Notes under the pieces: model-generated
Databases searched by the model: none
Seen by the model: only the letters and a program-made list of their open reading frames with translations
What the model was told of the DNA's origin: nothing
Translations under genes and position numbers: made by a program
Shown here: in pieces, positions 1 to 47,149 of the stretch
Position numbering within the stretch: the first letter of the stretch is position 1
How the letters are laid out: every line of letters starts with the position of its first letter
Assembly: GCF_964204865.1 (NCBI RefSeq)
Contig: NC_135255.1
Span: forward strand, 12,987,135 to 13,051,134
Length of the DNA stretch: 64,000 bases
Direction of reading: 5' to 3'
DNA from: Styela clava
Lineage: Eukaryota > Chordata > Ascidiacea > Stolidobranchia > Styelidae

Positions 1-283
1 GAACGATTACAAGAACAATGTTTGTTTTATGCGAAGATCTGCATTTAGGCATATTTCATGTTTTCGTGCATGTAAACTCAAACCGTTTATACAGACCGGT
101 TTTGATAAGGGCTGTAGTCTAACATAGCACCACAATCTTGTGATTTTTTACCCTCGAGGTAATTATCACATTTTACCATAACAAAATTCTGGTTTATCTT
201 TTTTCGTATCGACTGTTGATGAAAAGTAAGATCATGTATTTTGACCAATAAGAGGCTGTGGGCGTGTAGATGAAACCTTAGAT

Positions 284-921
284 CAGGGTCGTCCGATCTT
301 TTTGGCCAAAGGGCCACATGTAATTTACTAATAAGTGCGTGGCCCACTTAACATTGTAGTGATGTTTTAGTTTTGCTACACTGACTACAGGTTTATAAAA
401 ATAAAAAAAAATACCCTCACGCCAAACTTTCACAGTTATTAGAACAATAAAACTGTTGTTTCCCAACCATTGATGGGGCGCCATCAGTGGTTATTCCCAA
501 AAGTTTCGCAAAAAACAAGTCAAGACGCTTGATCATTTCCATCACAGCTCCCAACAAATAAATGTCCATAGTCGTGCCACTAATTGGGACAATGGCTGTG
601 AACTCTTCAGGAATTTCAAAATCATCATTAACCCCACGCATGAAGAGCAGTAGACTTAATGCCAGTATTTTCGTTAAGCGCCGAGGGATACGATGAAAAC
701 TTTCCCGCTTTTGCAATTGAAGCTTCTGCTATAGATTTCCCAAGCTCTTCAACACGAAGAGAATCGTCTGTATTGACAGGCTTATATTTGCAAACGACTC
801 TTTTATTTCCGGACATCAATACTCAATATTTTTTATTTAATTCCGACAAATACAGCGCGGGCCACTCGAAATGTTTGTGCGGGCCACATATGGCCCGCGG
901 GTCACGGGTTAGACGACCCTG
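284..921. mobile_element. 0.64 kb hAT element, copy 1
   Basis: Starts CAGGGTCGTCCGA and ends TTAGACGACCCTG (inverted termini). It is flanked on both sides by the perfect 8 bp duplication CCTTAGAT (276-283 and 922-929), the hAT hallmark. It is too short to be autonomous and holds only a minus-strand transposase fragment. Confidence 0.93.
417..819 (-). pseudogene. hAT transposase fragment (GTF2IRD2-like type)
   Basis: Minus-strand coding remnant in two overlapping frames. It contains FMRGVNDDFEIPEEF and ITTDGAPSMVGK, typical of the catalytic region of GTF2IRD2/SCAND3-type domesticated and free hAT transposases. The TTDGA aspartate corresponds to a catalytic acidic residue in the family. There is no N-terminal zinc finger and no C-terminal dimerisation domain, and the frame is broken, so it is a dead fragment. 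The same fragment recurs in copies 2-4. Confidence 0.75.
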
Positions 922-1453
922 CCTTAGATTATATCGGAGGGCAAATAACAGTACATCACATATGCGTTAAGTATTTCACGTTTTTGCTCAGAATTAAGTT
1001 CTGGAAACGTCGTTTACAACTCAGTAATGCGATAAATGAAAACACTATTTCACATGACGTACATTCACGGTTTTCGTCATAACGGGGCCCTTGCAAGATC
1101 TAGAAAAAATCGCGCCTGCGGCGTTACCCGCAAGGAGGAAGGTAAAGAAATATTTTGAGGGAAGTAGAAGCGGACGCTCGTTAGGAGGGGTCGATAGATG
1201 CACGCGGGTTGTTGCGCCGGACGAAAGGCGGTAATTCGTCCGGTTTGCTGCCCCCGACCCATTTAGACCCCTGAGTAATTTGGATAACACATCATAAACC
1301 AGTAACTCCTAATGGACGTCGAGTTTCATCAATGTCCGGGTCCGTAATCACTCAACCGTGGCGACATTTTTTGTGATAAACTTGATCTCAATTGCTTCGT
1401 ATAACTTAAATATGGCATCCATACCTATTACCATTCCGAGATATTACCTGGAA

Positions 1454-1860
1454 TCACTGAAGCGTGGCTGGGGGTACGAGAAAAAAATGCATTTAAATAA
1501 ATATTTTAAACGTGCCCATGTCTTTAGATTCTTAATAAGATTCGCCAGAAGATTGCAATAATTTAAAATCCCTATACCGTGACTGGGGGTGGATGTAAAA
1601 AAATATTTAAAAAAAAACATTGACCTAACCTTTCCAACCATCCTTATGTTCTTCAATTCCTAACAGGACCTCTCAGAGGCCTGTGAAAAGTCAAAATCAC
1701 TGGGTCGTGACCGGGGGTAGGAAAAAAAAAAATCCTCAAAAAATTTCAAATACCTTTTCCAACTATTTTCATGTACTATATTTTTTAATATCCTCATTTC
1801 GAGCCGCACAACATTCCAAAGTCACTGGAGCGTAACGGGGAGGGGAAAATACCAAATTTC
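1454..1860. repeat. Decayed tandem repeat, about 115-128 bp period
   Basis: Four diverged blocks each start with a CGTG/CGTA-ACTGGGGG-like motif (near 1463, 1578, 1706 and 1831), followed by an A-run and a pyrimidine-rich half. Equivalent arrays lie at about 13532-13940, 29279-29680 and 38668-39075. A partial one lies at about 20090-20290. Confidence 0.55.
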
Positions 1861-2053
1861 CGGTCATGAAATATTCAATAAATTGTTCTTATCGGTAATT
1901 AGGCAACGCATTGCCGAAAATCGTTTTGACTCGTCTTCTCTGGCTCGATCGTTCTGAAAAATATTCTTAGTTAGTTTGGATTAGTTAGATCTAAACCCCG
2001 ACCCTCATGTCAATTTTTGTCCGGATCGGCACGCCAGTTTTCAAGGAAACGCA

Positions 2054-2433
2054 CGTCAAATAAAATGGCCGATTGACGGCTTGAACTGCCAGTAATTCAG
2101 ACAGTGAACTTGTTTCATTCCCGATATCTATAACAAGACATAAAAGTGAAACTAATTAGCATGATCATAAATCATCGAGGACTATTTGAAAAAGTAGTAT
2201 AGTCAAGAATAATTTTGAAATATTTTCAAAATTCTCTAATACACATCTCTTTCACTTTGGAATAATAAACTAGCAATTTGGAAGATACGAGAGATCTATT
2301 GAGTATACATATTATCCTCAATCTTAGTTATGTTTCACTTTTATAATATAACTTGGTATTATTATTGGCTCCACGTCCAGTCGTACAATGTGTGATACTA
2401 TTGCGATTGAGATCTAGCTAGTATCAGTTAGAC
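2054..2433 (+). promoter_or_regulatory. Conserved upstream block of lectin-like gene, unit 1
   Basis: Runs from GCACGTCAAATAAAATGGCC to the motif TCTAGCTAGTATCAGTTAG. In units 2, 3 and 4 the same block ends about 270 bp before the start codon, so it probably contains the proximal promoter. Here a hAT sits between it and the gene. Promoter role is inferred from position and conservation only. Confidence 0.5.
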
Positions 2434-3700
2434 CAGGGGTCACCAACCTTTTCGAAGCCGAGGGCTACTTTTTGGGTACAGATTAAGCTGCGGGCTACCA
2501 GTTCAATGTACCTTCTAAAAAGTCAGTTGCTGGACTAAGCTTCAATTATTGATATAATTACTGGTATTTAGTGAAGTATAGACACTAATAAACTTTAGGA
2601 TTCTTCAGGAAATCAAACGCATATCACAACGTTGCAAATAAATTTCTATCAATAACACTTGTATTTCAGAACTGAGTGTTTTTAAATTGATTTTCAACAC
2701 TCTGCACAAGTCTAAGATAAAATGGACTTAACAGTTGTACTATCAAATGTTGCAGAGTATTATACTCCGACGTGTAACTTGACCCTGTAACTCTGAGCGA
2801 GTCTTGCAGATTTCCATCAGTGAGGCGTGTTCCATGTTTGTTCCTGGTAGAGTGAGTCATGGTCCATCGTGTTAAGCGTTAGGTTCGCAGGTTCGAATCC
2901 CATGCGGGGATAGTTATGTGCGAAAGGATTGATGGACTCCTCGCCGCCGTAGAGTCGTTCACGTAACCGCTGGTCGGCTGAGGCTTCTTTCGCCATCAAG
3001 TACAGGCTTTCGGGAACAAACAACTAACTAAACCCATACCCGACATGGTAACCGGCGAAAAGCAGTGGTTTGTCATATGGTTAAGCCGTCCTATCGGCTA
3101 TCTTCTCCCCCGGGATAAATATGTAAATCTCCTCCTATCCTGAGTTTATGTCAAGAATGTTGATTCGAAAATACAGGTTGAAACAAACGATGGTCTCGTG
3201 GAATAGGATTGCTGTATGATTTGAATCGCGAGCTTTTTCTGTCCGTACCGTGCTGACCAGCGGGTAGTTAGCGCGGAAGATTACGTGACAAGATTTGAAA
3301 TATCCCTCCGCTTTGCCGTCGCTAATATCGCCCCACTAATAAGACACACGAAGGCTGTTTTTATGGTGGTAAAAATATATCCACTTCCCATTCATCGTGA
3401 AAATGATGGATTTTTCTTTGGAATCAGTAATTGTATTATTACTGCTCCGCTAATCAACGGACAAGAAAAAGCGCGGGTTTGTGGAAAGTGATCTCAGTGT
3501 GATGTCATAATTGGAAGAGTGTTAATTGACCCGTCACATTACTGAGGTCAAATAAAAATAAGATTGATGGTTACAAAATTAATATAGTGTCATTTCTAGT
3601 TCCCATATAAGTGTGATTCATACTAAAATTGCAGGACAAAATTTAATTGATGTAGCTTACTTATAATAGCCGTTATTAAGCTTAGTTTGGAACAGACCTG
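2434..3700. mobile_element. 1.3 kb hAT element, right end deleted (unit 1)
   Basis: Left end CAGGGGTCACCAACC follows AGTTAGAC (2426-2433). Compared with the intact copy at 39647-40977, about 65 bp including the right terminus is deleted, so the sequence passes from ACCTG directly to TTAGACAT. No transposase is visible, and it is not mobile as it stands. It contains a SINE-like piece at 2830-3130. Confidence 0.88.
2830..3130 (+). mobile_element. Candidate tRNA-derived SINE inside the hAT
   Basis: A Pol III B-box, GGTTCGAATCC, lies at 2890-2900, with a TGGTAGAGTGAG stretch upstream that could be a degenerate A-box. The tRNA arms do not fold fully. Borders are estimated. The same piece is in the unit 5 hAT. 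Confidence 0.45.
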
Positions 3701-4156
3701 TTAGACATACAAATTTGAAAAATTGTAGTTTTTTATATTTCCCTATATCGGATCCGGTGACTGGGCTGAAAACATTTACAATCGGAATTTTGTAAATTCA
3801 AAAAATCAGGTATAATAAAAATTTCATTTTCTGTTTAAATATAGAAATCCGTTTATAAATCATAATTTTACGTTTTTTTATGTTTTATAATTGTAAATTA
3901 ATTTTAGGTCGAACACAAGAGACAGAGGAACACAATTTGGCAAATAGACTTGTTCAGAAACAAAGACATACAATACAAGAGAGCTATGCTCAAATATATG
4001 GACACGTAGAGTCACATAATTTTGATGACGTCAGCGCGAAAAAATAATAGCCTTCTGGAGAAAATTTTTATCTTTAACCACTAAAAATTTCAAAGCAATT
4101 GGTCTAGTATTCGAAGAGAAAAGCGACTTTTTAAAAACGTGTCAAGCGGTACTGAG

Positions 4157-4823
4157 TTAGCAGTCAGGCAGCATCTTACCTGTACACTGTAGGCCATATA
4201 CGGTAATTGATCACAGAACAGTTGTTCCCTTGCAAATTTTATGTTGTTTACACTTTAGGACAGATAATTGATCACAGAACAATTCTTCCCTTTCAAATTT
4301 TATGTTGTTTCCAGTAGACTCTCATCAAAATAAACAAATATAGTAGGCTACAAATGCTACAACGCTTGCATTACTGCACTGGTAGGACCGTGAAAGAATA
4401 AGTTACGGTAATTTCATTGTGGTAAGACACCGGTACCGGCACCAGTACCAGTATCGTACTTACGTACTGAGCTACCAGTACCGGTTAGCAGTCAGCCAGC
4501 ATCTTACCTGTACAATGTAGGCCATATACGGTAATTGATCACAGAACAGTTGTTCCCTTGCAAATTTTATGTTGTTTACACTTTAGGACAGATAATTGAT
4601 CACAGAACAATTCTTCCCTTTCAAATTTTTTGTTGTTTCCAGTAGACTCTCATCAAAATAAACAAATATAGTAGGCTACAAGTGCTACAACGCTTGCATT
4701 ACTGCACTGGTAGGACCGTGAAAGAATAAGTTACGGTAATTTCATTGTGGTAAGACACCGGTACCGGCACCAGTACCAGTATCGTTCTTACGTACTGAGC
4801 TACCAGTACCGGTACCAAACCTG
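4157..4823. repeat. 338 bp tandem duplication with nested 61 bp repeats
   Basis: Two nearly identical units start at 4157 and 4495 (TTAGCAGTCAG). Each contains a roughly 47 bp motif twice (TAATTGATCACAGAACA, about 61 bp apart) and a GGTACCGG/CCAGTACC-rich end. A more diverged third piece follows to about 4985. Confidence 0.88.
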
Positions 4824-5211
4824 TAGGTCTGATATTCCGTTCCGCATACGATAGGCTATAAAACTTGCATTGCAGCATTAGTAATACCGCGGAAGGAATA
4901 AGTCAATTTCACTGCGTTACGGCACCGGTATGGCAACTTACCAGTACCGACCTACAGTAGCTGTAGTACTGAGCAAGACAATCGATCGCGAAACCGCTTG
5001 AAATAAGGGAAAAAACAGTGTTCCCATGAGTAAAAATAAATACCGCGAAATTTTGTATGAAATATCATATCTCATAGGATTCATATAAAATTTAAGAATA
5101 AACAAAAGTAATAGCCTTCTAGCGAAAAAATTAATCTTTAACCACTGAAAATTTCAAAGCAATTGGTCCAGTATTCGAAGAGAAAAGCGACTTTTTAAAA
5201 ACGTGTCAAAG

Positions 5212-5247
5212 AACAAGAACAAGAACAAGAACAAGAACAACAACAAC
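5212..5247 (+). repeat. GAACAA/CAA microsatellite
   Basis: Five AAGAAC units followed by AAC triplets, immediately 3' of the second 96 bp direct repeat. Confidence 0.9.
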
Positions 5248-5288
5248 ATAATATTGAAACGATCGTTATGTCCACTACGTGTCCAATA

Positions 5289-7260
5289 ATGGGTAATATT
5301 GTGATGTTGTTATTTACCTATCATGTTTACGATTAGATCATATGAAATGCGGAATAAGTATAAAGTGTTAAAGTTTTAAATTGTTGGTATGTTTTATTTG
5401 AAGGAAATACCAGAAGAAATGTTATCATTTCGTTGATAGCAGTTGTTCTTATAATCAGCGGCATTGTAGTTGCGATTGTAACAAATATGAACACTTTTTC
5501 TTTTACTATCACCACTACAACTCCGACTACAACTCCGACGAATACTACTGCCGCTTCAACAACTACTGAGACTATCCAGATGTTAACAGAAAAAAAGACC
5601 ACAACTGATCCAGGTTGGCTATAAATACCTGAAAACGAAAAGGGCATAATTTTAAATAAAAAGGGTAACAAGGTCCCGGTTTCAAACTCCTACTTAACAG
5701 ACGGGTGCAAAATGCACTTGAATTGCATGTGCATGCGAATTGCGTATGATGTATTTATAATCAATCGAAACAAGTCATTCAAGCAGTCATGTAATTTGTA
5801 TCAGAGACATCCAATTAATCTATTAATTCAAAAAAAAATGCTCACGTCGGGTTGATTTGTGATGGAGGGAATGCATAATATACAACTATCCTATAGTGAC
5901 AAATAATATATTGGACTTCTGTGCGCTTCTACAAATATTCTATCATTGAATAAACGAACGTTTTTTGATTGGTAGTAAACGCGCTATGTACTATAACAAT
6001 TCGGGTTCGAAATGAATTACGATTGCACCTATTGTTTAAATCTCCCGGATAGGTTTCATTGACTGAACAAGTTATATTCAAACCTCTCTGTTTTTACTCA
6101 TTTCCAAAAATTTTGAGCTTGAACAGAATAAACTTGATCGATCTTAACTTATTCTGCAGGTCCGGCTTGTTACTGGATTGAAATCGATAAATCAATCAGC
6201 ATGAATTATGATGATGCGGTTGACGCCTGTTTGAAAAAGAATGGAGTTATTGGTTCTCCGAAGGATGAAAATGCTCTTAACGCATTTATGGACTATGTGA
6301 GGCCGGAAAGAGGATACCGTAGAAGAATATGGACAAGTTTACAGATTGATCCTGAGGTAATTAACTGTCTTAGAAAATACTAAATCAAAACATTTGAGTT
6401 TAAAAAGGTTTGTATATGTTTTTACATGTGTTGATTGAACAATTCGAAAAAATTAGCAAAAACTGTTGCTAGAGGCTGGTAGAGGCTAACCATAAGCAAC
6501 GAAATATTTTGTAGTTATATTTTTTAAACAAGAGAATGATGCTTAAATATGTAGATACGAATGCCAAAGCGAAGCATTAGCCTACCTTACCTTTTACCGA
6601 AACCTTACGTAGTCTACTGTACGGTACGATGTAAAAAACTTACGCGTTTCGCGTAGCATGAGAGAGGTCGCTGAACCGCTACAAATAATTTGTTTTAATT
6701 TTGAAGTGGTCATCACACAAATTTCGGACGGAAAATCGAATCACATAGACTCATAAAGCACACAGGAAGTTTAGGAATAAATTAAGTAGTAGATCTCAAG
6801 CGAAAAATACTTTCTTAAACCACTAAAATTTCGAAGCAATTGGTCTAGTAGAAGATGAAATAACAAAACGATCCATAGATACACTAGAATGAGTCCAATA
6901 AAATATTGCTGTTATCCCCCCCAATCGAATTCTCCCAGCAATTCCAACCTTTGAATGAACTTATTAATATAGCTTTAATTGAACCATGCTATCTCTCAAA
7001 TTCAATTGACTTATTTTTAGACGAATGTGATATCACCTGAGGGTGCATACACCAAATGGACAAAATGGAAACCTGACCTAGGGTCTTCGTTCATAATTTA
7101 TACCGGAGTTATGCTGATGGTACATGTAGACAAGACAACAGACGAGAACGGGATGGCAAATTGGTTTGTCACATCAATAGCATACGGTGTTGTATGCCAG
7201 ACTCATCTAAATGACAACAAAAGGCCAACCGATGTTGACTACCTCGATGGACCATGTTAA
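5289..7260 (+). CDS. Type II membrane C-type-lectin-like protein, unit 1
   Basis: Four coding exons: 5289-5292, 5404-5613, 6160-6356, 7021-7260 (216 residues). Every junction is GT..AG and phase-matched. Exon 1 gives only Met plus one base. Seen in the product: basic tail with R5-R6, membrane helix about 8-27, Thr/Pro-rich stalk about 28-71 with a sequon at N48, then the lectin-like domain. The domain shows C75-Y-W, helix motif NYDDAVDAC (C95), KDENALNAF, IWTSLQ, YTKWTKW and GVVCQ (C196), and the protein ends at C216. The second conserved disulfide and the EPN/WND calcium motifs of sugar-binding lectins are missing, so the ligand is unknown. The membrane topology suggests a cell-surface receptor or adhesion protein. 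AATAAA at 7438 is a possible poly(A) signal. A start at an in-frame upstream ATG is excluded because that frame is closed here. Confidence 0.85.
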
Positions 7261-8106
7261 AATGATTTTATTCAGAGATTAAAACGATTATTACGTATAT
7301 GATTTTTTTCTTATATTTGCCAATCGCATGATACTTCTTATCTGTCAATTTCTCTTAAATTGTAGATGTATAACTGGCGTTTCAATCGTAGAACAATGCC
7401 AATATAATTGACATAAGTCATCTGCAAAAGAACTGACAATAAAAATTGGTTAGATTTGCCCAAATTGCCAATGTTTTGGAGCAAGCCAATAAACTCATTT
7501 TATTTTGGAAAACGATGCATGTTGTAAATCTCAACGATGTGTTGACAAAATTATTAGGTTTGCATCTTGAATGCCATAATAATTACATACATACAAAATT
7601 CAAAAAAAATCGATACTGACAGTTTCCTTATGAAAGTGTGACATACTTTGTATTCGAATAAAATTTCTACTTCATCTAGTGTCTTATTGAGAAAACCATT
7701 GCGGGTTTTTAGGTGAAAGTGAACATATCAGTTCTGCGATGAAAAAAAAAGATACCGAAACCGGCCTGTATGGTGGAGAAAGAATGAACTAGTTTATGTT
7801 TCTGTAATCTGCGGACGATCGTTGTTAATTTATATTTCTGCCGCATAACCAGAACAACCAAGGTATTAAGGAGAATGATCTCACAGTCTGAGACATATAT
7901 CTTATTCAAGAGGTAGTCGCTTGATGATTTATACAAGATAGAACTTTGAAAATGCAAAGACAGCAAGACAGCTTTGGGTAGTTCAATTATTGGACATTTG
8001 CAGAGTATACAAAATATCTTCGTCCATACGCTTCTTTTGGATGCATTTGGTCTCTTAAGAGTAAATGAATAGTCCGGTAAGATGACATAGAAGAGAAGTG
8101 GTATTC
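7261..8106. other. 3' flank of unit 1 gene, no further gene seen
   Basis: AT-rich sequence shared by all units, with a candidate poly(A) signal at 7438. A minus-strand 85-codon open frame is present in every unit but shows nothing beyond what recent duplication would preserve. Confidence 0.6.
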
Positions 8107-8473
8107 ACGTCAATTAAAATGGCCGATTGACGGCTTGAACTGCCAGTAATTCAGACAGCAAACTTGTTTTATTCCCGATATCTATAACAAGACATAAAAA
8201 TCAAACTATAGCATGGCTATCGAGGACTATTTAAAAAAGTAGAATAGCCAAGAATAAATTGGAAATATTATTAAAATTTCTTATATAACTGTTTTACTTT
8301 GGAATAATAAACTAGCAATTTTGCGACGACGTGAGATATATTGGTTTACCCACATTGACATAGGAGAGTACACTTTACATACTGATCCAACATTTTTGTA
8401 TATGCGTTTTTACAATTGAGTATACCTATTATCCCCAATTTTAGTCGTGTTCCACATTTATAATATAATTTGG
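8107..8473 (+). promoter_or_regulatory. Second upstream block, unit 1 (split by hAT; continues 11484-11571)
   Basis: Diverged copy of the block at 2054-2433, beginning CGTCAATTAAAATGGCC and ending, after the 3.0 kb hAT, with TCTAGCTAGTATCAGTTAG. In units 2 and 5 the equivalent block leads into a second lectin-like copy, so it is probably the old promoter region of a gene now missing from this unit. Confidence 0.5.
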
Positions 8474-11400
8474 CAGTGGCGGCGCGTGGTCATTTTGACA
8501 ACCGGGGAAAGCTACTGCGGGACCAAGTCACCCCCATCTACGGGGACAGGATGAGCGCTGTAAGTTCTCCCATCATTTTATGAGTATAAAAACCATTCCA
8601 TCGGTAACAACCAATCGGCAAAAGCGACAATTTTTAACGATAAGAAAGTGTCTTTAAAACCGGTCCAAGTCAAGGGATTAATAAATATAGACATAGTTTA
8701 TTTTGAAACCTCTTTCAAAAGGAAAGGCAATATTTACCCAGATAAACACAATGACATATTAACAGAAATTTCGGGAAAGCAGACAAAACCTAAAATAAGG
8801 TTTAAAACGTTACTATGAAGAAAGGAAAGATATTGCAAAGATAAGGACATGCGTCGCTCACTCATAGATATATATGCTGCTAGACTTCTACTGCTTGAAC
8901 ATATATGCAACACGCCGCGGTTTCTTGGAAGCAATATGCTCAATAACGCGCTGATTAAAGTCATGCATCCCAGAAATAACGTCTATGTGAATGGATAAAA
9001 CAGCCAAGGAAATATAATCTATCTTGCTTCATTGTGTTTCTAAGATACGTTTTAATACGCTTCAGCGTGCTGAATGTTCGCTGTGCATCGGCGGAAGAAA
9101 TAGGCGTCGTCAAAATGATGTCCAGAAATTTTGCAGACGCCGCAAAGGTAGTTACTAGAGTGTTATCTATGAGGAACCCATAGAGCGCGCAAGTTGATGT
9201 GATGTTCAAAAAAGTTTGATTGGTGTATATACATCGCAATTCATTTTCCAATTTACCCACGTTTATCATGGGGTTAAATTTGGAGACAGTAGCCAACAAA
9301 TGGATGGGAAATTGACGTGCAAATTTTAAAAATTTTTGGGGTTCATCAAAGAGAACGCGGCAAGGTGTTCAGTGCGCATCGCCTTTTGATTCACCAGAAT
9401 ATCACAGCATTCCTTTGCAGACAAAATCAAACGCTGCGTTGTTTGCCCGCGGCGTAAAGAAGCACTCCATGTGTCGTCGTATTTTATTGTTTCCCGGATA
9501 CGAGATACAGCATCGCAGAAGTCTGAAATACACGACTGCACAGACGCTCCATCCATTAGCCTTGACTGCAATGCGCCGTATAATACATCCACGTGATAGA
9601 ATATTGTGGAGACAAAAGCGAGAAAAAATGAAAACTCACCATCTTCTAGCAGACGCTTTAGACCTGCCGCCTCCCTCACAGAGCGTTCGTCCCAAACCGG
9701 AGAGCTCTGAATGCCATTGAAACACTCAATGAGCTCAGACCTAATTTCGGACACGCCCTACACCACGCGTGATTGGAAGTTCCAACGTGTTGGTGCACAA
9801 GCTGGGAGACGGCGGCTACATATCTGGCGAAGGAGGTCAGAGCGCTTCGGCGAAACGGAAAAAAAGGAAGAAAACCCCGAAACATTTGCAAAAAATATAC
9901 GGACGAGAGGGGTATCAAGACACATATTTTTAATAACGATGTTAAATTGGTGTGCATAACAATGTAAAAAATGCGCATGAGGAAAATCTTCTTTTATATA
10001 AACTTGAACACCATGTTTCGACCCACTCATGACTGCCGCGCCGTCATAAGTTTGAGCTATCAATTTTGACTTCGCGTTGTAAGGCTGTAACACTTCTTTC
10101 AGTACAGCCGATATCCCGCAAGCCGTGCGATCAACGATTGGTACAAAGCTGTGAAATCTCTCGGTAGGTTTACCATCTTTCACAACCGAAAAATCACAGC
10201 CAGTTGGGAAACGCACGTGATGTCAGTTGTCTCGTCAGATTGAATCGAAAGGAACTGGCAATTCTCAATTTCCAGAGCCAAATGTTGTAAATAAATTTTA
10301 TACATTGAGTCGAGCAAATCATTTTGGATATCCTTAGATGTCCCTTTCGAAACAGTTGCGGCATCAAGATGATCTCTCAATACTGTATCTAGGGATGCGG
10401 TGTATTCCACCATATCCAAAAATACCCCTCTATTAGAAGAGTCAGCCCGTTCATCGTGCCCACGGAGGGACAGCTCGTGACAACCAATGAACTTCAAAAC
10501 ATCTATCAATCGACCGAGAACATGGCGGTTTTTCTCGACGTTTTGGTTGTGCCGACGAATAGAAACCGCGCGTCCTTCATCCAACTGTGCTGCAATATTA
10601 ACATTTCCGAATGTTCGGTATTTTACTGCATTGTCCAGATGCTCCATGGAAGATTGATGATCCCTGGCACGCTCTGAAAGATGTTTAAGATCTCTAAAAC
10701 CAAATTTACTCCAACGTGAGTCACGGGGGTAGCAAAAAGTGGGCAATAAAAACAAAAAAGTGCATTTTTGTCCTCGCTGTAACACAACCGTTCGTGTTTT
10801 TTATACCAAGTTCCTGCGCAGAATGTACGCCGACGCTTTCCTCCGTCATGGGATTGTTCCAGTGAACAATTTTTTGGTTGCTAAGGCCCAAGACGTTGTA
10901 CCTAATTTTTGTTCCAGCGGCAGCTGCGAAAACGGAGTGCGAAGTAGTGCATCAACCTTATTCATTATGAGGTCTAGGGCTAAGAAATGCGAAGTCGGAA
11001 AGAATTGAGGAGCAAATGGCAAAGCACTAAAGGTCTCTAACTGATTCAAATAGCGAAACAAGCGACAAAAACGAAAGCGAGGAAACTATCAACTCTTCAA
11101 GCAACCAACGAACGAGAAGGAATGCGTGGATATGTCAACACGTTGTTGTAAGAAACGTCGGCATTGTGTCGTCATAATTTCGGGGCTAGCCCCGATCGGC
11201 CCCGATGATTTAGTAAAAGAAACAGAAAACAAACGAGACAAACGCGGCGAGTGGAAGATAAAAGAGAGAATACGATATACAATGAGCAACCGGGGCAAAA
11301 TCGGCGTCGCCCCGTCGACGTTCGGCGAAGGCTTTGCGAGCGAAAAATGAACCATGTCGGGAGAATATGCCAGAGTAGACAGTCTGTGCAACGGATATTG

Positions 11401-11483
11401 AGGTATTTTTCAAATATTTTTTATTATACCGAAAAAACAACCGGGGCATTGCCCCGGTTGGCCCTATTGACGCGCCGCCACTG
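8474..11483. mobile_element. 3.0 kb hAT transposon, copy 1
   Basis: Ends CAGTGGCGGCGCGT and ACGCGCCGCCACTG. Flanks are TAATTTGG (8466-8473) and TAAGTTGG (11484-11491), an 8 bp duplication with one later change. Units 2 and 5 show the uninterrupted site. It holds a decayed minus-strand transposase. Near both ends it has GC-rich CCGGGG/CCCCGG palindromic stretches. Confidence 0.95.
8961..10785 (-). pseudogene. hAT transposase, ZMYM1/DUF4371-like, broken
   Basis: Pieces in different frames (10785-10180, 10216-9758, 9754-9326, 9299-8961) follow the order of a ZMYM1-like hAT transposase. They show FGFRDLKHLSERARDHQSS (N-terminal), QSDETTDIT and YDGAAVMSGS (RNase-H-like acidic positions), HCYAHQFN, PTRWNFQSR, and the C-terminal dimerisation motif ADAQRTFSTLKRIKTYLRN. 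Frameshifts separate the pieces. One base more than in copies 2 and 3 near 9010 also breaks the C-terminal end in this copy. It is not functional as it stands. Confidence 0.85.
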
Positions 11484-11571
11484 TAAGTTGGTATTATTAT
11501 TATTGGCGCTACGTCGATTTGCCCAATGTGCGAGGCTATTGCAGTTGAGATCTAGCTAGTATCAGTTAGAC

Positions 11572-32513: not shown

Positions 32514-33355
32514 AATGATTTTATTCAGAGATTAAAACGATTATTACGTATATGATTTTTTTCGCATATTCGCCAATCCCGTGATACTTCTTATCTGTCA
32601 ATTCTCATAAATTTGTAGATGTATAAACTGGCGTTTCAATTGTAAAACAATGTCATCACTCCAATATAATTGACATAAGTCAACTGCAAAAGAACTGACA
32701 ATCAGAATCGGTTAGATTTGCCCAAATTGCCAGCCAATGAACTCATTTTATTTTGGAAAACGATGCATGTTGTATATCTCAACGATGTGTTGACAAAATC
32801 ATTAAGTTTGCATCTTGAACGCCATAATAATTACATGCATACAAAATTCAAAAAAAATCGATACTGACAGTTTCCTTATGAAAGTGTGACATACTTTGTA
32901 TTCGAATAAAATTTCTACTTCATCTAGTGTCGTATTGAGAAAATCATTGGGGGTTTTTAGGTGAAAGTGAACATATCAGTTTTGCGATGAAAAAAAAAAA
33001 GATACCGAAGCCGGCCTGTATGGTGGAGAAAGAATGAACTAGTTTATGTTTCTGTAATCTGCAGACGATCGTTGTTAATTTATATTTCTGCCGCATAACC
33101 AGAACATCCAAGGTATTAAGGAGAATGATCTCACAGTCTGAGACATATATATTATTCAAGAGGTAGTCGCTTGATGATTTATAGAAGATAGAACTTTGAA
33201 AATGCAAAGACAGCAAGACAGCTTTGGGTAGTTCAATTATTGGACATTTGCGAGTATACAAAATATCTTCGTCCATACGCTTCTTTTGGATGCATTTGGT
33301 CTCTTAAGAGTAAATGAATAGTCCGGTAAGATGACATATAAGAGAAGTGGTATTC
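32514..33355. other. 3' flank of unit 4 gene, no further gene seen
   Basis: Shared 3' flank, nearly identical to unit 3. Nothing else recognised. Confidence 0.6.
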
Positions 33356-33599
33356 ACGTCAATTGAAATGGCCGATTGAATAAATTTAAAATATTATTAA
33401 GATTTCTTATATAACTGTTTCACTTTGGAATAATAAACTAGCAATTTTGCGACGACGCGAGATATATTGGTTTACCCACATTGACATAGAAGAGTACACT
33501 TTACATACTGATCCAACATTTTTGTATATGCGTTTTTACAATTGAGTATAGCTATTATCCCCAATTTTAGTCGTGTTCCACATTTATAATATAATTTGG
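33356..33599 (+). promoter_or_regulatory. Second upstream block, unit 4 (shortened, split; continues 36616-36703)
   Basis: Carries the same internal deletion as unit 3 and is interrupted by the 3.0 kb hAT. Confidence 0.45.
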
Positions 33600-36500: not shown

Positions 36501-36615
36501 GCTAGTGTAGACAGTCTGTGCAACGGATATTGAGGTATTTTTCAAATATTTTTTATTATACCGAAAAAACAACCGGGGCATTGCCCCGGTTGGCCCTATT
36601 GACGCGCCGCCACTG
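33600..36615. mobile_element. 3.0 kb hAT transposon, copy 3
   Basis: Same termini; perfect TAATTTGG at 33592-33599 and 36616-36623. Confidence 0.96.
34014..36021 (-). pseudogene. hAT transposase, ZMYM1/DUF4371-like, broken
   Basis: Pieces 36021-35305 (238 codons, the longest of the three copies), 35341-34883, 34879-34568 and 34424-34014. The N-terminal frame reads further upstream than in the other copies, after small length changes near 35870-35890. Catalytic-region and dimerisation motifs are as described for copy 1. Frame breaks remain between the first and second pieces, so it is not functional. Confidence 0.85.
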
Positions 36616-36703
36616 TAATTTGGTATTATTATTATTGGCGCTACGTCGATTTGCCCAATGTGCGAGGCTATTGCAGTTGAGATCTAGCTAGTATCAGTTA
36701 GAC

Positions 36704-39265
36704 ATCAGAGCGTGCCTGAGAAATAGCGATCTTTGCAGCATGATATTTTGTTAGTATGTCGTCACGCTTGATTACTTATCGATCTTAAGATCGGTAAGTA
36801 TGTTCATGGTATTTGTCTGCTTGTCTGTTAGATGAACGCGATATCTCAAGAAGGCGAGGTTGAATCTGCTCCAAATTTTGCATGTGCATTTATCACATCT
36901 CGTAGCAGAAGCCTATTGATTTTGGATGAATTATGTTGTATAATTAGTGAGTTATTAATTAATTAGTGATGGGACACGCGGTGTCACTATAGAGCCATGA
37001 TTGGAAGCCACAGTTTCGATTGATAAGTCTTCGGTCTCCAACCGATGTTCTCGTTTTATTGATTGCTAACTGCACAACAAGAATTAGATCTGCCGCTCAT
37101 ACTGATTGTCTATGTTCATTCTCAATGCCATCACACAGAAGTATGAAAGTATTTTTGTATGTACTGTATATATTATATATATTGTGTATATATATTTTGA
37201 TGTAATGTGACATGGAACGATTACAAGAACAATGTTTGTTTTATGCGAAGATCTGCATTTAGGCATATTTCATGTTTTCGTGCATGTAAACTCAAACCGT
37301 TTATACAGACCGGTTTTGATAAGGGCTGTAGTCTAACATAGCACCACAATCTTGTGATTTTTTACCCTCGAGGTAATTATCACATTTTACCATAACAAAA
37401 TTCTGGTTTATCTTTTTTCGTATCGACTGTTGATGAAAAGTAAGATCATGTATTTTGACCAATAAGAGGCTGTGGGCGTGTAGATGAAACCTTAGATCAG
37501 GGTCGTCCGATCTTTTTGGCCAAAGGGCCACATGTAATTTACTAATAAGTGCGTGGCCCACTTAACATTGTAGTGATGTTTTAGTTTTGCTACACTGACT
37601 ACAGGTTTATAAAAATAAAAAAAAATACCCTCACGCCAAACTTTCACAGTTATTAGAACAATAAAACTGTTGTTTCCCAACCATTGATGGGGCGCCATCA
37701 GTGGTTATTCCCAAAAGTTTCGCAAAAAACAAGTCAAGACGCTTGATCATTTCCATCACAGCTCCCAACAAATAAATGTCCATAGTCGTGCCACTAATTG
37801 GGACAATGACTGTGAACTCTTCAGGAATTTCAAAATCATCATTAACCCCACGCATGAAGAGCAGTAGACTTAATGCCAGTATTTTCGTTAAGCGCCGAGG
37901 GATACGATGAAAACTTTCCCGCTTTTGCAATTGAAGCTTCTGCTATAGATTTCCCAAGCTCTTCAACACGACGAGAATCGTCTGTATTGACAGGCTTATA
38001 TTTGCAAACGACTCTTTTATTTCCGGACATCAATACTCAATTTTTTTTATTTAATTCCGACAAATACAGCGCGGGCCACTCGAAATGTTTGCGCGGGCCA
38101 CATATGGCCCGCGGGTCACGGGTTAGACGACCCTGCCTTAGATTATATCGGAGGGCAAATAACAGTACATCACATATGCGTTAAGTATTTCACGTTTTTG
38201 CTCAGAATTAAGTTCTGGAAACGTCGTTTACAACTCAGTAATGCGATAAATGAAAACACTATTTCACATGACTTACATTCACGGTTTTCGTCATAACGGG
38301 GCCCTTGCAAGATCTAGAAAAAATCGCGCCTGCGGCGTTACCCGCAAGGAGGAAGGTAAAGAAATATTTTGAGGGAAGTAGAAGCGGACGCTCGTTAGGA
38401 GGGGTCGATAGATGCACGCGGGTTGTTGCGCCGGACGAAAGGCGGTAATTCGTCCGGTTTGCTGCCCCCGACCCATTTAGACCCCTGAGTAATTTGGATA
38501 ACACATCATAAACCAGTAACTCCTAATGGACGTCGAGTTTCATCAATGTCCGGGTCCGTAATCACTCAACCGTGGCGACATTTTTTGTGATAAACTTGAT
38601 CTCAATTGCTTCGTATAACTTAAATATGGCATCCATACCTATTACCATTCCGAGATATTACCTGGAATCACTGAAGCGTGGCTGGGGGTACGAGAAAAAA
38701 ATGCATTTAAATAAATATTTTAAACGTGCCCATGTCTTTAGATTCTTAATAAGATTCGCCAGAAGATTGCAATAATTTAAAATCCCTATACCGTGACTGG
38801 GGGTGGATGTAAAAAAATATTTAAAAAAAAACATTGACCTAACCTTTCCAACCATCCTTATGTTCTTCAATTCCTAACAGGACCTCTCAGAGGCCTGTGA
38901 AAAGTCAAAATCACTGGGTCGTGACCGGGGGTAGGAAAAAAAAAATCCTCAAAAAATTTCAAATAACTTTTCCAACTATTTTCATGTACTATATTTTTTA
39001 ATATCCTCATTCCGAGCCGCACAACATTCCAAAGTCACTGGAGCGTAACGGGGAGGGGAAAATACCAAATTTCCGGTCATTAAATATTCAATAAATTGTT
39101 CTTATCGGTAATTAGGCAACGCATTGCCGAAAATCGTTTTGACTCGTCTTCTCTGGCTCGATCGTTCTGAAAAATATTCTTAGTTAGTTTGGATTAGTTA
39201 GATCTAAACCCCGACCCTCATGTCAATTTTTGTCCGGATCGGCACGCCAGTTTTCAAGGAAACGC
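36704..39265. repeat. Unclassified linker segment, unit 5
   Basis: Complete linker from CAGAGCGTGCCTGAG (36706); its right half matches unit 1 nearly base for base. No gene seen. Confidence 0.7.
37498..38135. mobile_element. 0.64 kb hAT element, copy 4
   Basis: Same termini and CCTTAGAT duplications (37490-37497 and 38136-38143). Transposase remnant on minus strand 37631-38033. Confidence 0.93.
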
Positions 39266-39646
39266 ACGTCAAATAAAATGACCGATTGACGGCTTGAACT
39301 GCCAGTAATTCAGACAGTGAACTTGTTTCATTCCCGATATCTATAACAAGACATAAAAGTGAAACTAATTAGCATGATCATAAATCATCGAGGACTATTT
39401 GAAAAAGTAGTATAGTCAAGAATAATTTTGAAATATTTTCAAAATTCTCTAATACACATCTCTTTCACTTTGGAATAATAAACTAGCAATTTGGAAGATA
39501 CGAGAGATCTATTGAGTATACATATTATCCTCAATCTTAGTTATGTTTCACTTTTATAATATAACTTGGTATTATTATTGGCTCCACGTCGAGTCGCACA
39601 ATGTGTGATACTATTGCGATTGAGATCTAGCTAGTATCAGTTAGAC
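39266..39646 (+). promoter_or_regulatory. Conserved upstream block of lectin-like gene, unit 5
   Basis: Same block as 2054-2433, and separated from its gene by the 1.3 kb hAT in the same way. Confidence 0.5.
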
Positions 39647-40977
39647 CAGGGGTCACCAACCTTTTCGAAGCCGAGGGCTAATTTTTGGGTACAGATTAGG
39701 CTGCGGGCTACCAGTTCAATGTACCTTCTAAAAAGTCAGTTGCTGGACTAAGCTTCAATTATTGATATAATTACTGGTATTTAGTGAAGTATAGACACTA
39801 ATAAACTTTAGGATTCTTCAGGAAATCAAACGCATATCACAACGTTGCAAATAAATTTCTATCAATAACACTTGTATTTCAGAACTGAGTGTTTTTAAAT
39901 TGATTTTCAACACTCTGCACAAGTCTAAGATAAAATGGACTTAACAGTTGTACTATCAAATGTTGCAGAGTATTATACTCCGACGTGTAACTTGACCCTG
40001 TAACTCTGAGCGAGTCTTGCAGATTTCCATCAGTGAGGCGTGTTCCATGTTTGTTCCTGGTAGAGTGAGTCATGGTCCATCGTGTTAAGCGTTAGGTTCG
40101 CAGGTTCGAATCCCATGCGGGGATAGTTATGTGCGAAAGGATTGATGGACTCCTCGCCGCCGTAGAGTGGTTCACGTAACCGCTGGTCGGCTAAGGCTTC
40201 CTTCGCCATCAAGTACAGGCTTTCGGAAACAAACAACTAACTAAACCCATACCCGACATGGTAACCGGCGAAAAGCAGTGGTTTGTCATATGGTTAAGCC
40301 GTCCTATCGGCAATCTTCTCCCCCGGGATAAAAATGTGAATCTCCTCCTATCCTGAGTTTATGTCAAGAATGTTGATTCGAAAATACAGGTTGAAACAAA
40401 CGATGGTCTCGTAAAATAGGATTGCTGTATGATTTGAATCGCGAGCTTTTTCTGTCCGTACCGTGCTGACCAGCGGGTAGTTAGCGCGGAAGTTTACGTG
40501 ACAAGATGTGAAATATCCCTCCGCTTTGCCGTCGCTAATATCGCCCCACTAATGAGACACACGAAGGCTGTTTTTATGGTGGTAAAAATATATCCACTTC
40601 CCATTCATCGTGAAAATGATGGATTTTTCTTTGGAATCAGTAATTGTATTATTACTGCTCCGCTAATCAACGGACAAGAAAAAGCGCGGGTTTGTGGAAA
40701 GTGATCTCAGTGTGATGTCATAATTGGAAGAGTGTTAATTGACCCGTCACATTACTGAGGTCAAATAGAAATAAGATTGATGGTTACAAAATTAATATAG
40801 TGTCATTTCTAGTTCCCATATAAGTGTGATTCATACTAAAATTGCAGGACAAAATTTAATTGATGTAGCTTACTTATAATAGCCGTTATTAAGCTTAGTT
40901 TGGAACAGACCTGTGGGCGACTCATATGGTCTTCGCGGGCGACTTGGTGCCCGCGGGCAACGCGTTGGTGACCCCTG
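39647..40977. mobile_element. 1.3 kb hAT element, complete (unit 5)
   Basis: Left end CAGGGGTCACCAACC, right end GTTGGTGACCCCTG. Perfect AGTTAGAC duplications at 39639-39646 and 40978-40985. It defines the true borders of the truncated copy in unit 1. No transposase, so non-autonomous. Confidence 0.95.
40043..40345 (+). mobile_element. Candidate tRNA-derived SINE inside the hAT
   Basis: Second copy of the piece at 2830-3130; B-box GGTTCGAATCC at 40103-40113. Borders estimated. Confidence 0.45.
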
Positions 40978-41257: not shown

Positions 41258-43286
41258 ATGGGTAATATTGTGATGTTGGTATTTACCTATCATGTTTACG
41301 ATTACATCATATTAAATGCGGAATAGGTATAAAGTGTGTCAAATGTACATTTTAAATGTTTGGTATGTTTTATTTGAAGGAAATACCAGAAGAAATGTTA
41401 TCATTTCGTTGATAGCAGTTGTTCTTATAATCAGCGGCATTTTAGTTGCGATTGTAACAAATATGAACACTTTTTCTTCTACTATCACCACTACAACTCC
41501 GACTACAAATCCGACGAATACTACTGCCGCTTCAACAACTACTGAGAATATCCAGATGTTAACAGAAAAAAAGACCACAACTGATCCAGGTTGGCTATAA
41601 ATACCTGAAAACGAAAAGTGGCATAATTTAAAAAAAAAAGGGTAACTAGGTCCCGGTTTCAAACTCTTACTTAACAGACGGGTGCAAAATGCACTTGAAT
41701 TGCATGTGCATGCGAATGATATATTTATAATCAATCGAAACAAGTCACTGAAGCAGTCTATAATTAGTATCAGAGACATCTAATTAATCTATTAATTCAA
41801 AAAAATGTTCACGTCGGGATGATATGTGATGGAGGGAATGCATAATATACAACTATCCTATAGTGACAAATAATATATTGGACTTCTGTGCGCTTCTACA
41901 AATATTCTATCATTGAATAAACGAACGTTTTTTGATTGGTAGTAAACGCGCTATTTACTATAACAATTCGGGTTCAAAATGAATTACGATTGCACCTATT
42001 GTTTAAATATCTCGGATATGTTTCATTGACTGAACAAGTTATATTTAAACCTCTCTGTTTTTACTCATTTCCAAAAATTTTGAGCTTGAACAGAATAAAC
42101 TTGATCGATCTGAACTTATTATGCAGGTCCGGTTTGTTACTGGATTGAAATCGATAAATCAAAAAGCATGAATTATGATAAAGCGGTTGACGCCTGTTTG
42201 AAAAAGAATGGATTTATTGGTTCTCCGAAGGATGAAAATGCTCTTAACGCATTTATGGACTATGTGAGGCCGGAAATAGGATACCGTAGAAGAATATGGA
42301 CAAGTTTACAGATTGATCCTGAGGTAATTAACTGTCTTAGAAAATACTAAATCAAAACATTTGAGTTCAAAAAGGTTTGTATATGTTTTTACATGTGTTG
42401 ATTGAACAATTCGAAAAAATTAGCAATAACTGTTGCTAGAGGCTGGTAGAGGCTAACCATAAGCAACGAAATATTTTGTAGTTATATTTTTTAAACAAGA
42501 GAATAATGCTTAAATATATAGATACGAATGCCAAAGCGAAGCATTAGCCTACCTTACCTTTTACAGAAACCTTACGTAGTCTACTGTACGGTACGATGGA
42601 AAAAACTTACGCGTTTCGCGTAGCATGAGAGAGGTCGCTGAACCGCTACAAATGATTTTTTTAATTTTGAAGAAGTCATCACACAAATTTCGGACGGAAA
42701 ATCGAATCACATAGACTCCTAAAGCACACAGGAAGTGTAAAAATAAATTAAGTAGTAGATCTCAAGCGAAAAATACGTTCTTAAACCACTAAAATTTCGA
42801 AGCAAATGGTCTAGTAGTAGATGAGGAAAGCAGTTTTTTCATAAAAAGAAGAAAAATATCAGCGAAAACAAAAAACAACCTCATAATAACAAAACGATCC
42901 ATAGATATACTAGAATGAGTTTAATAAAATATTGCTTTTATCCCCCCCAATCGAATTCTCCCAGCAATTCCAACCTTTGAGCTAACTTATTAATATTGCT
43001 TTAATTAAACCATGCTATCTCTCAAATTTAATTAACTTATTTTTAGACGAATGTGATATCACCTGAGGGTGCATACACCAAATGGTCAAAAAGGCAAGCC
43101 TACCTAGGGTCTCCGTTCGTAACTTTTACCGGAGTTATGCTGATGGTACATGTAGACGAGACAACAGACAAGAACGGGATGGCAAATTGGTCCGTTACAT
43201 CACTAGCATACGGAGTTGTATGTCAGACTTATCTAAATGACAAAAAAAGGCCAACCGATGTTGATTACCTCGATGGATCATGTTAA
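41258..43286 (+). CDS. Type II membrane C-type-lectin-like protein, unit 5
   Basis: Exons 41258-41261, 41380-41589, 42127-42323, 43047-43286 (216 residues). 5' UTR exon from 41188. Exon 2 matches units 3 and 4 except PTTNPTNTT in the stalk. Exon 3 keeps PVCYW and NYDKAVDAC but reads RPEIGYRRR like units 1 and 2. Exon 4 is full length and reads YTKWSKRQAYLGSP with ANWSVTSLAYG. The gene thus mixes features of both subgroups. Candidate AATAAA at 43465. All splice sites intact. Confidence 0.85.
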
Positions 43287-44133: not shown

Positions 44134-44612
44134 ACGTCAATTAAAATGGCCGATTGACGGCTTGAACTGCCAGTATTTCAGACAGCAAACTTGTTTTATT
44201 CCCGATATTTATAACAAGACATAAAAATCAAACTATAGCATGGCCATCGAGGACTATTTGAAAAAGTAGCATAGCCAAGAATAAATTTGAAATATTATTA
44301 AAATTTCTTATATAACTGTTTTACTTTGGAATAATAAACTTTTAAAGCAATAACTTTTTAAAAAACTAAAAAAGCAATTTTGCGACGACTCGAGATATAT
44401 TGGTTTACCCACATTGACATAGAAGAGTACACTTTACATAGTGATCCAACATTTTTGTATATGCGTTTTTACAATTGAGTATACCCATTATCCCCAATTT
44501 TAGTCGTGTTCCACATTTATAATATAATTTGGTATTATTATTATTGGCGCTACGTCGATTTGCCCAATGTGCGAGGCTATTGCAGTTGAGATCTAGCTAG
44601 TATCAGTTAGAC
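44134..44612 (+). promoter_or_regulatory. Second upstream block, unit 5 (empty hAT site)
   Basis: Contains the empty TAATTTGG target at 44525-44532 and a private AT-rich insertion near 44339-44371. Leads into the diverged copy at 44844, about 230 bp away. Confidence 0.5.
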
Positions 44613-44843
44613 ATACATTTATTAGTTCTTTATCTTTTCACATATCGGCTCCGCTGACTGACCTGAAAATAATTACAATTAGAATTTTGTAAATTCAAAA
44701 AACCTGGTATGACATAATTTTTCCTTTTTTTGTAAATATAGCACTCCGATTATAAATACTTATAAATGGATTTTAGGTAGAATATGGGAAACAAACAGAG
44801 AAAAAGTATCTGAAGCGGTTGGGAAACAAAGAAACACAATAAA

Positions 44844-47149
44844 ATGGGTAATAATATCATGTTGTTATTTACCTATCATGTTTACTACTACATCATATTG
44901 AATGCGGAATAAGTAAGTATAAAGTGTATCAAATGTACATTTCAAATCGTTGGTATGTTTTATTTGAAGGAAATACCAGAAGAAATGTTATCATTCCGTT
45001 GATTGCCTTTGTTGCTATAATCTGCGCCATTGTAGTCGCGGTTTTAACAAATATGAATACTTTTTCTTGTACTATCACCACTACAACTCCGACGAATACT
45101 ACTGTCGCTTCAACAACTACTGAGACTACGCAGATGATAACAGAGAAGAAGACTACAAATGATCCAGGTTGGTTATAAAAATCCGAAAAAAAGGAGCGGC
45201 ATAAATAATTTTTCAAACGATAATGTATCAGAGTCCCCGCTTGTCCATCTGTTACTTAATAGCCCGGTGCAAAATGCATTTGAAATGCATGTACATTCTT
45301 ATGATATATTTACAATCAATCGAAACAATTCTCAAGCAGTCATGTAATTAGCATCAGAGACATCCAATTAATCTAATAATTCAATAGATGTGATTACCTC
45401 GGGATGGTATGTGATGGATATAATGCATATGCAGCTATCACAGTGGTTCTCGTACTTTTTGAAAACAAATTCCACGACGGACCCCTTGCAATTTTTTGAT
45501 CCACTAAAACAAAACATTAAAGAATCACAACAGAAAATCAATGCTCCGTATAGTAAAACGAACAAAAGAATATAAAGCACAACTCTAAAGACATGTGTGA
45601 CATTCAGTCTGTTTCGATATTTGGTAAACGTGCTGAAGGGAAGCGTAAGCTACAGCTTACAATGTGGAAGCGTGATCGAAACAGAAAGTGAAGTATCACT
45701 GTCTCCAGCAGTGATTGCGAAGCAGGAAAAGGCGTCAAATGTGTATTTTTCAAATTTAAGACTTATTTGTTGTATTATCAAGCTATTAGCCATATTACAG
45801 ATTTGTTTCGCGGACCCTCCGAAAGTGCTTCACGGAACCACTAAACTATCCTATAGTGATAAATGATATGTAGGACTTCTGTGCGCTTCTACAAATATTC
45901 TATCATTGAATAAACTATCGTTTTTTTATTGGTAGTAAACGCGCTATGTACTATAACAATTCGGGTTCAAAGTGAATCACAATTGAGAATATTGTTTAAT
46001 TAAATATCTCGGATAGGCTTCATGTTATATTTAAACCTCTCTGTTTTTACTCATTGTCAGAAACTTGTTCTTGAACATGATAAACTTGATCGATCTTACT
46101 TTATTCTGCAGGCCCGGCTTGTTATTGGATTGAAATTGATAAAAGCAAAAGAATAATCAGGAATTACAATGATGCGGTTGACGCCTGTTGGGAAAAAAAA
46201 GGAGTTGTTGGTTTTCCGAAAGATAAAAATGCTCTTAACGCATTTATGGACTATGTGAGGCCGGAAAGCGGATACCGTATAGAAGAATATGGACGAGTTT
46301 AAAGATTGATCCTGAGGTAATTAACTCTCTTAGAAAAATAGTAATTTGAACACTTGAGTTTAAAGGGGTTTGTATATATTTGACCACTTGATATAATTAA
46401 ACAATTGAAAAAATTACCAAACCTGTTGCTGAACCGTGAGCCGTTTCGGTAGAGGCTAAGACATACGCGACGAAATATTTTGTAGTTATTTTTTTAAAAC
46501 AAGAAAAAAAGATGTCTAAATATATGGACACGAAAGCCAAAGCGAATCAATAGTCTACCTTACCTTACCTCACCTTACAGAACTTTCTCTTACGTATCCT
46601 ACTGCACGGCACGGTCCAAAAACTTTGGAATTTCGGGTAGCACGAAAATTGTCGCAGGACTGCTAATTAATTTTTATTAATTTTGAAGAGGTCATCACAA
46701 AAATTTTCGAACTGAAAAACGAATCATATAGCGAACATACAACCTTTAACTACTGACGTTTTAAAGCAATTGGTCTGGGAGTTGATGAGAAAAGCAATTT
46801 ATGATTTTGATAAAATAATGCTGTTATACTTCAATCGAATTCTGCCAGCACTTTCTACTCTTTAACTAATATTGCCTTGAAGGTGCGATCTCCAAAGATT
46901 GAACTGACTTATTTTTAGACGTTTGTGATATCACCCAAGGGTGCATACACCAAATGGGCAAAATGGAGCCCCGAACTGTCCATTGCTCATAACAGAGTTA
47001 TGCTGAGGGTACCTATAAACAAGACAGCAGACAATAACGGGATGATAAATAGGATGGAAACTTCAATAGCATACGGAGTTGTATGCCAGACTCATCTAAA
47101 TGACAACAATAGGCCAACCGATGTTGACTACCTCGATGGACCATGTTAA
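44844..47149 (+). pseudogene. Diverged lectin-like gene, frameshifted
   Basis: Exons recognisable at 44844-44847, 44970-45167, about 46112-46322 and 46919-47149. Exons 1 and 2 are sound: NTRRNVII, helix FVAIICAIVVAVLTN, Thr-rich stalk ending NDPG. Exon 3 encodes PACYWIEID and YNDAVDAC, but two extra bases after GGATACCGTA (near 46279) shift the frame to a stop at 46299-46301. Exon 4 is open (ITP-like start, VVCQ, terminal Cys) and shorter. Intron 2 carries a hAT fragment. Most likely a pseudogene; a truncated product ending in exon 3 cannot be excluded. It is the oldest-looking member of the family here. Confidence 0.8.
45441..45843. mobile_element. hAT-like non-autonomous element in intron
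   Basis: Left end CAGTGGTTCTCG; right end CACGGAACCACTA is an imperfect inverted match. The flanking GCTATCA / ACTATCC is a weak target duplication. Sits in intron 2 of the frameshifted gene, where other copies read uninterrupted. Confidence 0.65.

Follow-up and report, generated by a model that had tools for sequence, protein, structure and literature searches.

What protein is encoded by the genes that stand in a row on one contig of the Styela clava genome, and is the row a surface-receptor cluster, as a first-pass annotation had proposed? We examined the window, a stretch of 64,000 nucleotides (C6:12,987,135-13,051,134; contig NC_135255.1) in an assembly of 376.6 Mb and 379 contigs, and compared it with the 240 kb of DNA to its left, where negative coordinates count leftward from window base 1. 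The explanation that fits best, and that we consider probable from the sequence, is that the genes form a tandem family specific to the lineage and encode small surface proteins that display a C-type-lectin-like domain (CTLD). Self-BLAST of the window revealed direct repeats from base 1 to about 47,380 on the plus strand only, with no minus-strand repeat match within the window listed at E 1e-10. Positions 20087-30235 and 29490-39646 share 97.9% identity over 10,186 columns, and 1-3701 and 37215-40914 share 99.3%. The GC content is 32-44% across the window in 2-kb bins. Base 1 of the window lies in the middle of a unit and marks no array boundary. In the upstream DNA, unit homology sets in near -46,389, giving an array of about 94 kb of which the window holds only the right half. 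Five further full copies were located there by tblastn, with exon 2 at -43,356, -34,267, -24,050, -14,490 and -6,604 (three of the upstream full copies are named P3, P4 and P5 below), as were two further exon-2 relics at -39,803 and -10,948. The first-pass annotation had correctly counted five open copies (A, B, D, E and F) and two broken ones (C and G) in the window. Of the 47-kb extent it gave, the end at 47149 is the exact stop codon of relic G, but the start is not the array edge, and the whole array comprises 10 open copies and four relics.

The four-exon gene with shared exon borders described earlier for the plus strand was borne out by AG/GT borders and open frames in the five window copies. 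With the copy at 41 kb as anchor, exon 2 was found at seven sites in the window and exons 3 and 4 at six sites each. All 10 full copies are open with identical splice borders. Exon 2 measures 180-210 bp, exon 3 197 bp and exon 4 237-240 bp including the stop codon, and the intron phases are 1, 1 and 0. The proteins of A, B, D, E and F are 206-216 residues long, and the 10 copies encode nine distinct proteins, those of P3 and A being identical. We rejected an alternative start at an ATG in intron 1 (window 41316): by eye, the matching frame in copy A stops immediately, and a first exon consisting of ATGG directly before GT precedes exon 2 in all 10 full copies.

Not only single units were copied. 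The multi-unit block from -22,540 to -9,327 is 99.3% identical to 6,859-20,054 over 13.2 kb. An identity of 99.3% is within the allelic range of many invertebrates, and this block, like the identical proteins of P3 and A, is what would be expected if haplotypes or a single locus had been laid out in tandem by the assembly. However, the 314 kb of sequence read is free of N, the identity between units, taken in 500-base tiles, spans about 70-100%, different units carry different inserts, and full copies alternate with the C/G type. We consider such an artefact very unlikely.

Exons 3 and 4 encode what is almost certainly a CTLD, although a divergent one. The assignment is made because of the match obtained with a widened family profile and because of the intron positions, judged against the excerpted account in PMC514892. 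The widened profile was built from five of the 10 full copies and 10 exon pieces of paralogues that are 29-50% identical. Against 15 CTLD segments from the PDB, two of NKG2D and 13 of the mannose-receptor type, it gave E 4.1e-6, a probability of 87% and a score of 38.7 compared to a shuffle maximum of 18.2 (0/60 shuffles), with 60 aligned columns that all lie within exon 3. Against seven CTLDs of the same genome it gave E 1.4e-4 (0/60 shuffles), and here the alignment extends into exon 4. These seven were picked by eye from 28 loci read; six are without C2 and C3, and the seventh, L039, has both. The profile of the five window copies was aligned by hhalign to the PDB segments with E 0.006 (0/120 shuffles), entirely in exon 3. 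Full-length comparison with the in-genome CTLDs gave E 0.022, where the real score was reached by one full shuffle and one exon-4 shuffle, each out of 80. For exon 4 alone, none of 80 shuffles reached the score against the in-genome class, nor did any of 60 with the widened profile. One intron precedes C1 and another directly follows the WIGL equivalent (IWTSL, IWTGI), and these two positions are among the CTLD splice sites of fish proteins in the excerpt of PMC514892.

Searches with single sequences gave weaker matches to the same fold. All five window copies matched Pfam Lectin_C (PF00059) below its curated cut-off of 22.6 bits, with a best E of 0.0037 (18.4 bits). Exon 3 by itself ranked Lectin_C first in 4/4 copies given, and the second rank was taken twice by Intimin_C, a C-type-lectin-like family. 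In a first search of the PDB, four of the five matches were tetranectin-type CTLDs (best E 0.04) and the fifth was an unrelated chain. A second yielded 4/4 tetranectin-type matches, one of them labelled TNFalpha although the aligned letters are those of tetranectin, and a third yielded tetranectin and collectin-11 in 5/5. On the same scale, a tetranectin piece matches accepted C-type lectins, among them CEL-I and the asialoglycoprotein receptor, with E 0.03-0.05. A spliced paralogue from contig C9 covered Lectin_C positions 5-106 of 107 at 18.6 bits, and three paralogue exon-3 pieces matched Lectin_C alone at 17.1-17.5 bits, all sub-threshold.

Several results weigh against the assignment. No window copy reaches the Lectin_C cut-off (18.0 and 18.4 bits in two of them), and Lectin_C was outranked by New_glue, on the stalk, in F and by SirB in A. 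We set aside New_glue, SirB and Pectinesterase as low-complexity or chance matches, and an E of about 0.004 by itself decides nothing. Exon 4 alone matched Lectin_C in none of four window pieces and none of five paralogue pieces. Against the PDB CTLDs its score was equalled or beaten by 58/120 shuffles, and by 3/60 with the widened profile. When only exon 4 was shuffled, 105/120 local and 36/120 global alignments scored at least as high as the real five-copy alignment. Support for the first half of the putative CTLD comes from the tests; for the second half it comes more from visual and mafft alignment. The profile match to a lectin domain on which the first-pass annotation had staked its case is missing for single copies at the curated threshold, but the widened profile (E 4e-6, 0/60), aided by the intron positions, overturned that result.

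The cysteines and motifs of this head are those of a reduced CTLD. C95 and C196 take the places of C1 and C4 in the alignment, and we infer a disulphide bond between them. There is no Cys at the place of either C2 or C3 in the five window copies and five paralogue exon-4 pieces. Ca2+-dependent C-type lectins have a sugar/Ca2+ site made of EPN or QPD plus WND. The EPN/QPD place in the array reads KPD, QPD, KP-, QAY or QPY, with QPD in B and P4 a match by letter only, and WND is absent, NW being followed by F, S or T. The head appears to be lectin-like without the sugar/Ca2+ motifs, and its lectin activity is only putative.

Relatives of this head were found elsewhere in the genome. Among the best 150 of 243 candidates scored in a search with the exon 3-4 protein (E up to 1), the C6 array accounts for 22, the region C9:21.05-23.45 Mb for 78 and C18:2.79-2.95 Mb for 16. 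The paralogues are 25-50% identical and mostly split at the same exon border, with matches near residues 2-69 or 65-128. By hand count, the C9 cluster, near the end of a 23.8-Mb contig, has 74 matches of exon-3 type and four of exon-4 type, 61 at E<=1e-3. In the 10 exon pieces read, exon-3 pieces have IWTGI or IWTKL, near WIGL, and one exon-4 piece has KWYPGDP, near the lectin motif W-x-P-G-E-P. Across putative joins, a Thr/Pro hinge ending in PG stands upstream of C9 exons L064 and L065, a frame that looks like a helical neck when read by eye upstream of L065, and a Thr-rich frame of 199 residues upstream of C18 exon L066. Proteins that combine a hydrophobic segment with a Thr-rich stalk may be a special branch of the family. 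A genome search with Lectin_C, in which the best 150 of 698 candidates were scored, gave at least 149 matches, so that the genome is generally rich in CTLDs; among the matches listed, none falls in the C6 array or the C9 cluster. Loci L044-L049 on C2 (five of the six at 10.8-12.6 Mb) form another CTLD class that is also without C2 and C3. We recognised no published account of the array family among the literature matches listed.

How the head is presented depends on exon 2, which encodes a seven-residue N-terminal tail, a single long hydrophobic segment and a Thr-rich stalk. The tail reads MGNT(R/K)RN and has no Tyr. In all five window copies the hydropathy peaks at 3.2 from residue 9, over a stretch of about 20 residues that contains no charged residue. 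Ser and Thr make up 54-59% of stalk residues 34-70 in A, D, E and F; the stalk of B is 10 residues shorter, and all five window copies have an N-glycosylation sequon in it. Four cysteines (C75, C95, C196 and C216) are constant in these copies, a clamp between C75 and C216 being a guess, and a fifth lies where the stalk begins in B and P4. Such a layout, with an N-terminal hydrophobic segment, a stalk and a C-terminal CTLD, would be that of a type II membrane protein, and together with the hydropathy it fits a signal anchor, in support of the type-II-like lectin-like protein suggested earlier. We propose that the segment stays uncleaved and that a stiff stalk with O-glycans would present the CTLD extracellularly. 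The same N-terminus could instead be a cleaved signal peptide, which would release the Thr-rich CTLD protein as a secreted effector, for example a soluble agglutinin or a mucus component. Toward its end the hydrophobic segment has small residues that would permit cleavage, and the neck-like frame of the C9 paralogue recalls, by eye, the neck of soluble oligomeric lectins. However, the hydrophobic stretch is long for a signal peptide, and the Arg or Lys that precedes it is consistent with a signal anchor. We regard secretion as a doubtful alternative, though one of some weight.

Type II CTLD surface receptors typically have a signalling motif of their own or a charged membrane residue for an adaptor. 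Neither was found in the window copies. Since the tail has no Tyr and the hydrophobic segment no charge, the displayed protein is probably unable to signal by itself, which makes a receptor with its own signalling unlikely. Of the surface-receptor cluster proposed earlier, the cluster is real and larger than claimed, but the receptor function finds no support in a tail and segment of this kind. The protein may act as a displayed ligand or as an adhesion or capture molecule, or it may signal through a partner.

We explored the possibility that the copies are merely drifting. Under relaxed constraint, a recent segmental expansion would have left function in one or two copies at most, and the variation in exon 4 would reflect drift together with a hot spot of mutation or conversion. 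An overall dN/dS of about 1 and four relics among 14 copies would be expected from drift, but 10/10 full copies are open. In the 10-copy alignment, 3/3 coding indels are multiples of three compared to 5/40 noncoding ones (p=0.0045), and no frameshifting coding indel was seen where about 10 would be expected at the noncoding rate; these counts cover full copies only, and four relics exist. In a simulation of single changes, the lack of any stop in 70 variable coding sites had P of about 0.04. These frame statistics argue against mere drift, and we consider it unlikely that drift accounts for the array.

The differences between copies are densest in exon 4. Among the five window copies, 34/237 exon-4 sites vary compared to 137/2127 noncoding sites (p=5e-5), and among all ten copies 40/237 compared to 177/2101 (p=8e-5). 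In the five copies, 16 of the 22 variable exon-4 residues fall within the best pair of loop-sized windows, which 0/400 random placements achieved. In the mafft alignment, read against the canonical motifs, the two variable segments lie at the EPN/QPD loop and just after NW near the WND place. The EPN/QPD loop and the WND region are the usual ligand site. The excess in exon 4 is seen in the pairs P5-D (p 3e-4), P5-E (0.0065) and D-E (2.5e-5). These three copies are 0.2-0.3% apart elsewhere and 1.7-3.4% in exon 4, where 5/5 codons that differ alter the encoded residue, in three cases through replacement of more than one base. Codon 157 encodes Trp, Leu and Arg across P5, D and E, none of which has the CTA (Leu) of the other seven copies. 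It is conceivable, though improbable in our view, that in part of the array exon 4 has far outpaced the rest of the gene through targeted diversification, whether by selection or by short conversion tracts from alleles not seen here, and that this makes a germline repertoire of binding faces.

Other comparisons weigh against selected change at the binding face. The excess is absent between P3 and A (0/240 in exon 4 compared to 13/2584) and between P4 and B (2/240 compared to 16/2604). The dN/dS is 0.76 for exon 4, 0.69 for exon 3 and 0.98 overall, none of them above 1; the value of 2.7 for exon 2 is a point estimate from few silent changes. Silent divergence is also raised in exon 4. Relic G shares eight of the 14 exon-4 states that are private to A within the five window copies, and part of the exon-4 variation is therefore old. 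The pattern suggests rapid change at the likely binding face, with selection unproven. The mosaic of differences noted in the first pass was upheld in part. Copies A and F share 99.3% identity in their upstream flanks and differ by about 5-6% in their gene bodies, and 11/30 max-chi-square triples had p<=0.01, uncorrected, but the PHI permutation test on the five copies was not significant (366/2000 permutations at or below the observed value). An uneven substitution rate could be the source of part of the mosaic signal.

Table 1 Features of the array and its surroundings in window coordinates.
Feature	Positions	Strand	Details
Tandem array, right half	1-47380	+	unit homology stops near 47,380; continues leftward beyond the window
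Copy A, open	5289-7260	+	ATGG 5289; exon 2 5404-5613; exon 3 6160-6356; exon 4 7021-7260
hAT transposase remains after A	8961-10800	-	open reading frames; repeat match to the other two
Copy B, open	14784-16791	+	exon 2 14906-15085; exon 3 15625-15821; exon 4 16552-16791
Relic C	18286-18964	+	exons 1-2 only; in-frame stop in stalk
Copy D, open	21104-23128	+	exon 2 21226-21435; exon 3 21972-22168; exon 4 22892-23128
hAT transposase remains after D, same site	24629-26540	-	open reading frames; repeat match
Copy E, open	30508-32513	+	exon 2 30630-30839; exon 3 31357-31553; exon 4 32277-32513
hAT transposase remains after E, same site	34014-36033	-	open reading frames; repeat match; Pfam
Copy F, open	41258-43286	+	exon 2 41380-41589; exon 3 42127-42323; exon 4 43047-43286
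Relic G	44823-47149	+	four exons; exon 3 frame broken

The transposons at identical sites reported earlier were confirmed as hAT pieces after A, D and E. Their matching place indicates that they were therefore duplicated together with the units. A Pfam scan of the piece after E, the one piece scanned, matched Dimer_Tnp_hAT (5.6e-9) and DUF4371 (1.1e-11). Intron 2 of relic G contains an insert at about 45431-45843, with borders set by eye, which we take to be hAT-like from a hAT end motif. In copy A, the 5' leader (3900-3975) is parted from the start codon by an insert of about 1.3 kb (3976-5285) that includes a direct repeat of 328 bp (4156-4813). The P3 leader stops at the same position as that of A, and because the leader is split off there, A and P3 may be regulated differently. 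Outside the array, a dispersed repeat pair (47763-48281 and 57253-57631) is 87-88% alike, and its start resembles a hAT end. Beside the array, at 52636-56337 on the minus strand, open pieces resemble by eye the exons of a secreted FG-GAP-repeat protein; one of six pieces scanned matched FG-GAP_3 weakly, at E 0.017 and under the cut-off. Rfam at gathering scores and ARAGORN gave no RNA match, and an NCBIfam scan gave no meaningful match. No relative was confirmed in viral contigs, and none was found in a phage collection with a 2.2-kb query piece.

Compared to the CTLD superfamily (PF00059), the array proteins share the C1-C4 pattern, a WIGL-like strand, a Y-x-x-W loop motif, VC or IC at C4 and the introns before C1 and after WIGL. 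They differ in being without C2, C3 and WND, in the variable EPN/QPD place, in an extra C-terminal Cys and in their sub-cut-off scores. CTLD receptors of the mammalian NK gene complex commonly have non-sugar ligands, and the SpTransformer (185/333) genes of sea urchin are linked and mosaic in their make-up. As far as the excerpts of PMC3819593 and PMC3322459 go, the type II receptors of the NK complex (NKG2D, CD94, Dectin-1 cluster) resemble the array genes in having an N-terminal membrane segment, a stalk, a C-terminal CTLD and a clustered arrangement. The array genes differ in encoding the CTLD in two exons and in having no C2-C3 pair, signalling motif or charged membrane residue, and any orthology between the two would be conjectural. 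The SpTransformer family, in the excerpts of PMC8634487 and PMC1988830, is likewise a family of similar, diverse genes and is reported to be up-regulated on immune challenge; the array protein is unrelated to it. The expanded CTLD repertoires of bivalves, in the excerpt of PMC10140915, are also lineage-specific expansions in an invertebrate; the genes there were gathered by the Pfam model, below which the array family scores.

The array has grown by duplication of units and of blocks larger than a unit, and unequal crossing-over, possibly with conversion, would keep renewing the set of copies. Binding would be Ca2+-independent and would involve the face that carries the two loops most divergent between copies. 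The comparison with known systems suggests an immune or self/non-self role as the likeliest use. This type of gene array is already familiar, and what is added here is about half of the row, beyond the window, and the finding that the differences are densest in the exon of the likely binding face. In this array, which is young and countable and has intact as well as broken copies, the turnover and loop diversification of a CTLD family can be measured. The family, with its 10 open array genes and the C9 cluster, is missed at the Pfam threshold, and genomes of this kind may contain more CTLDs than have been counted.

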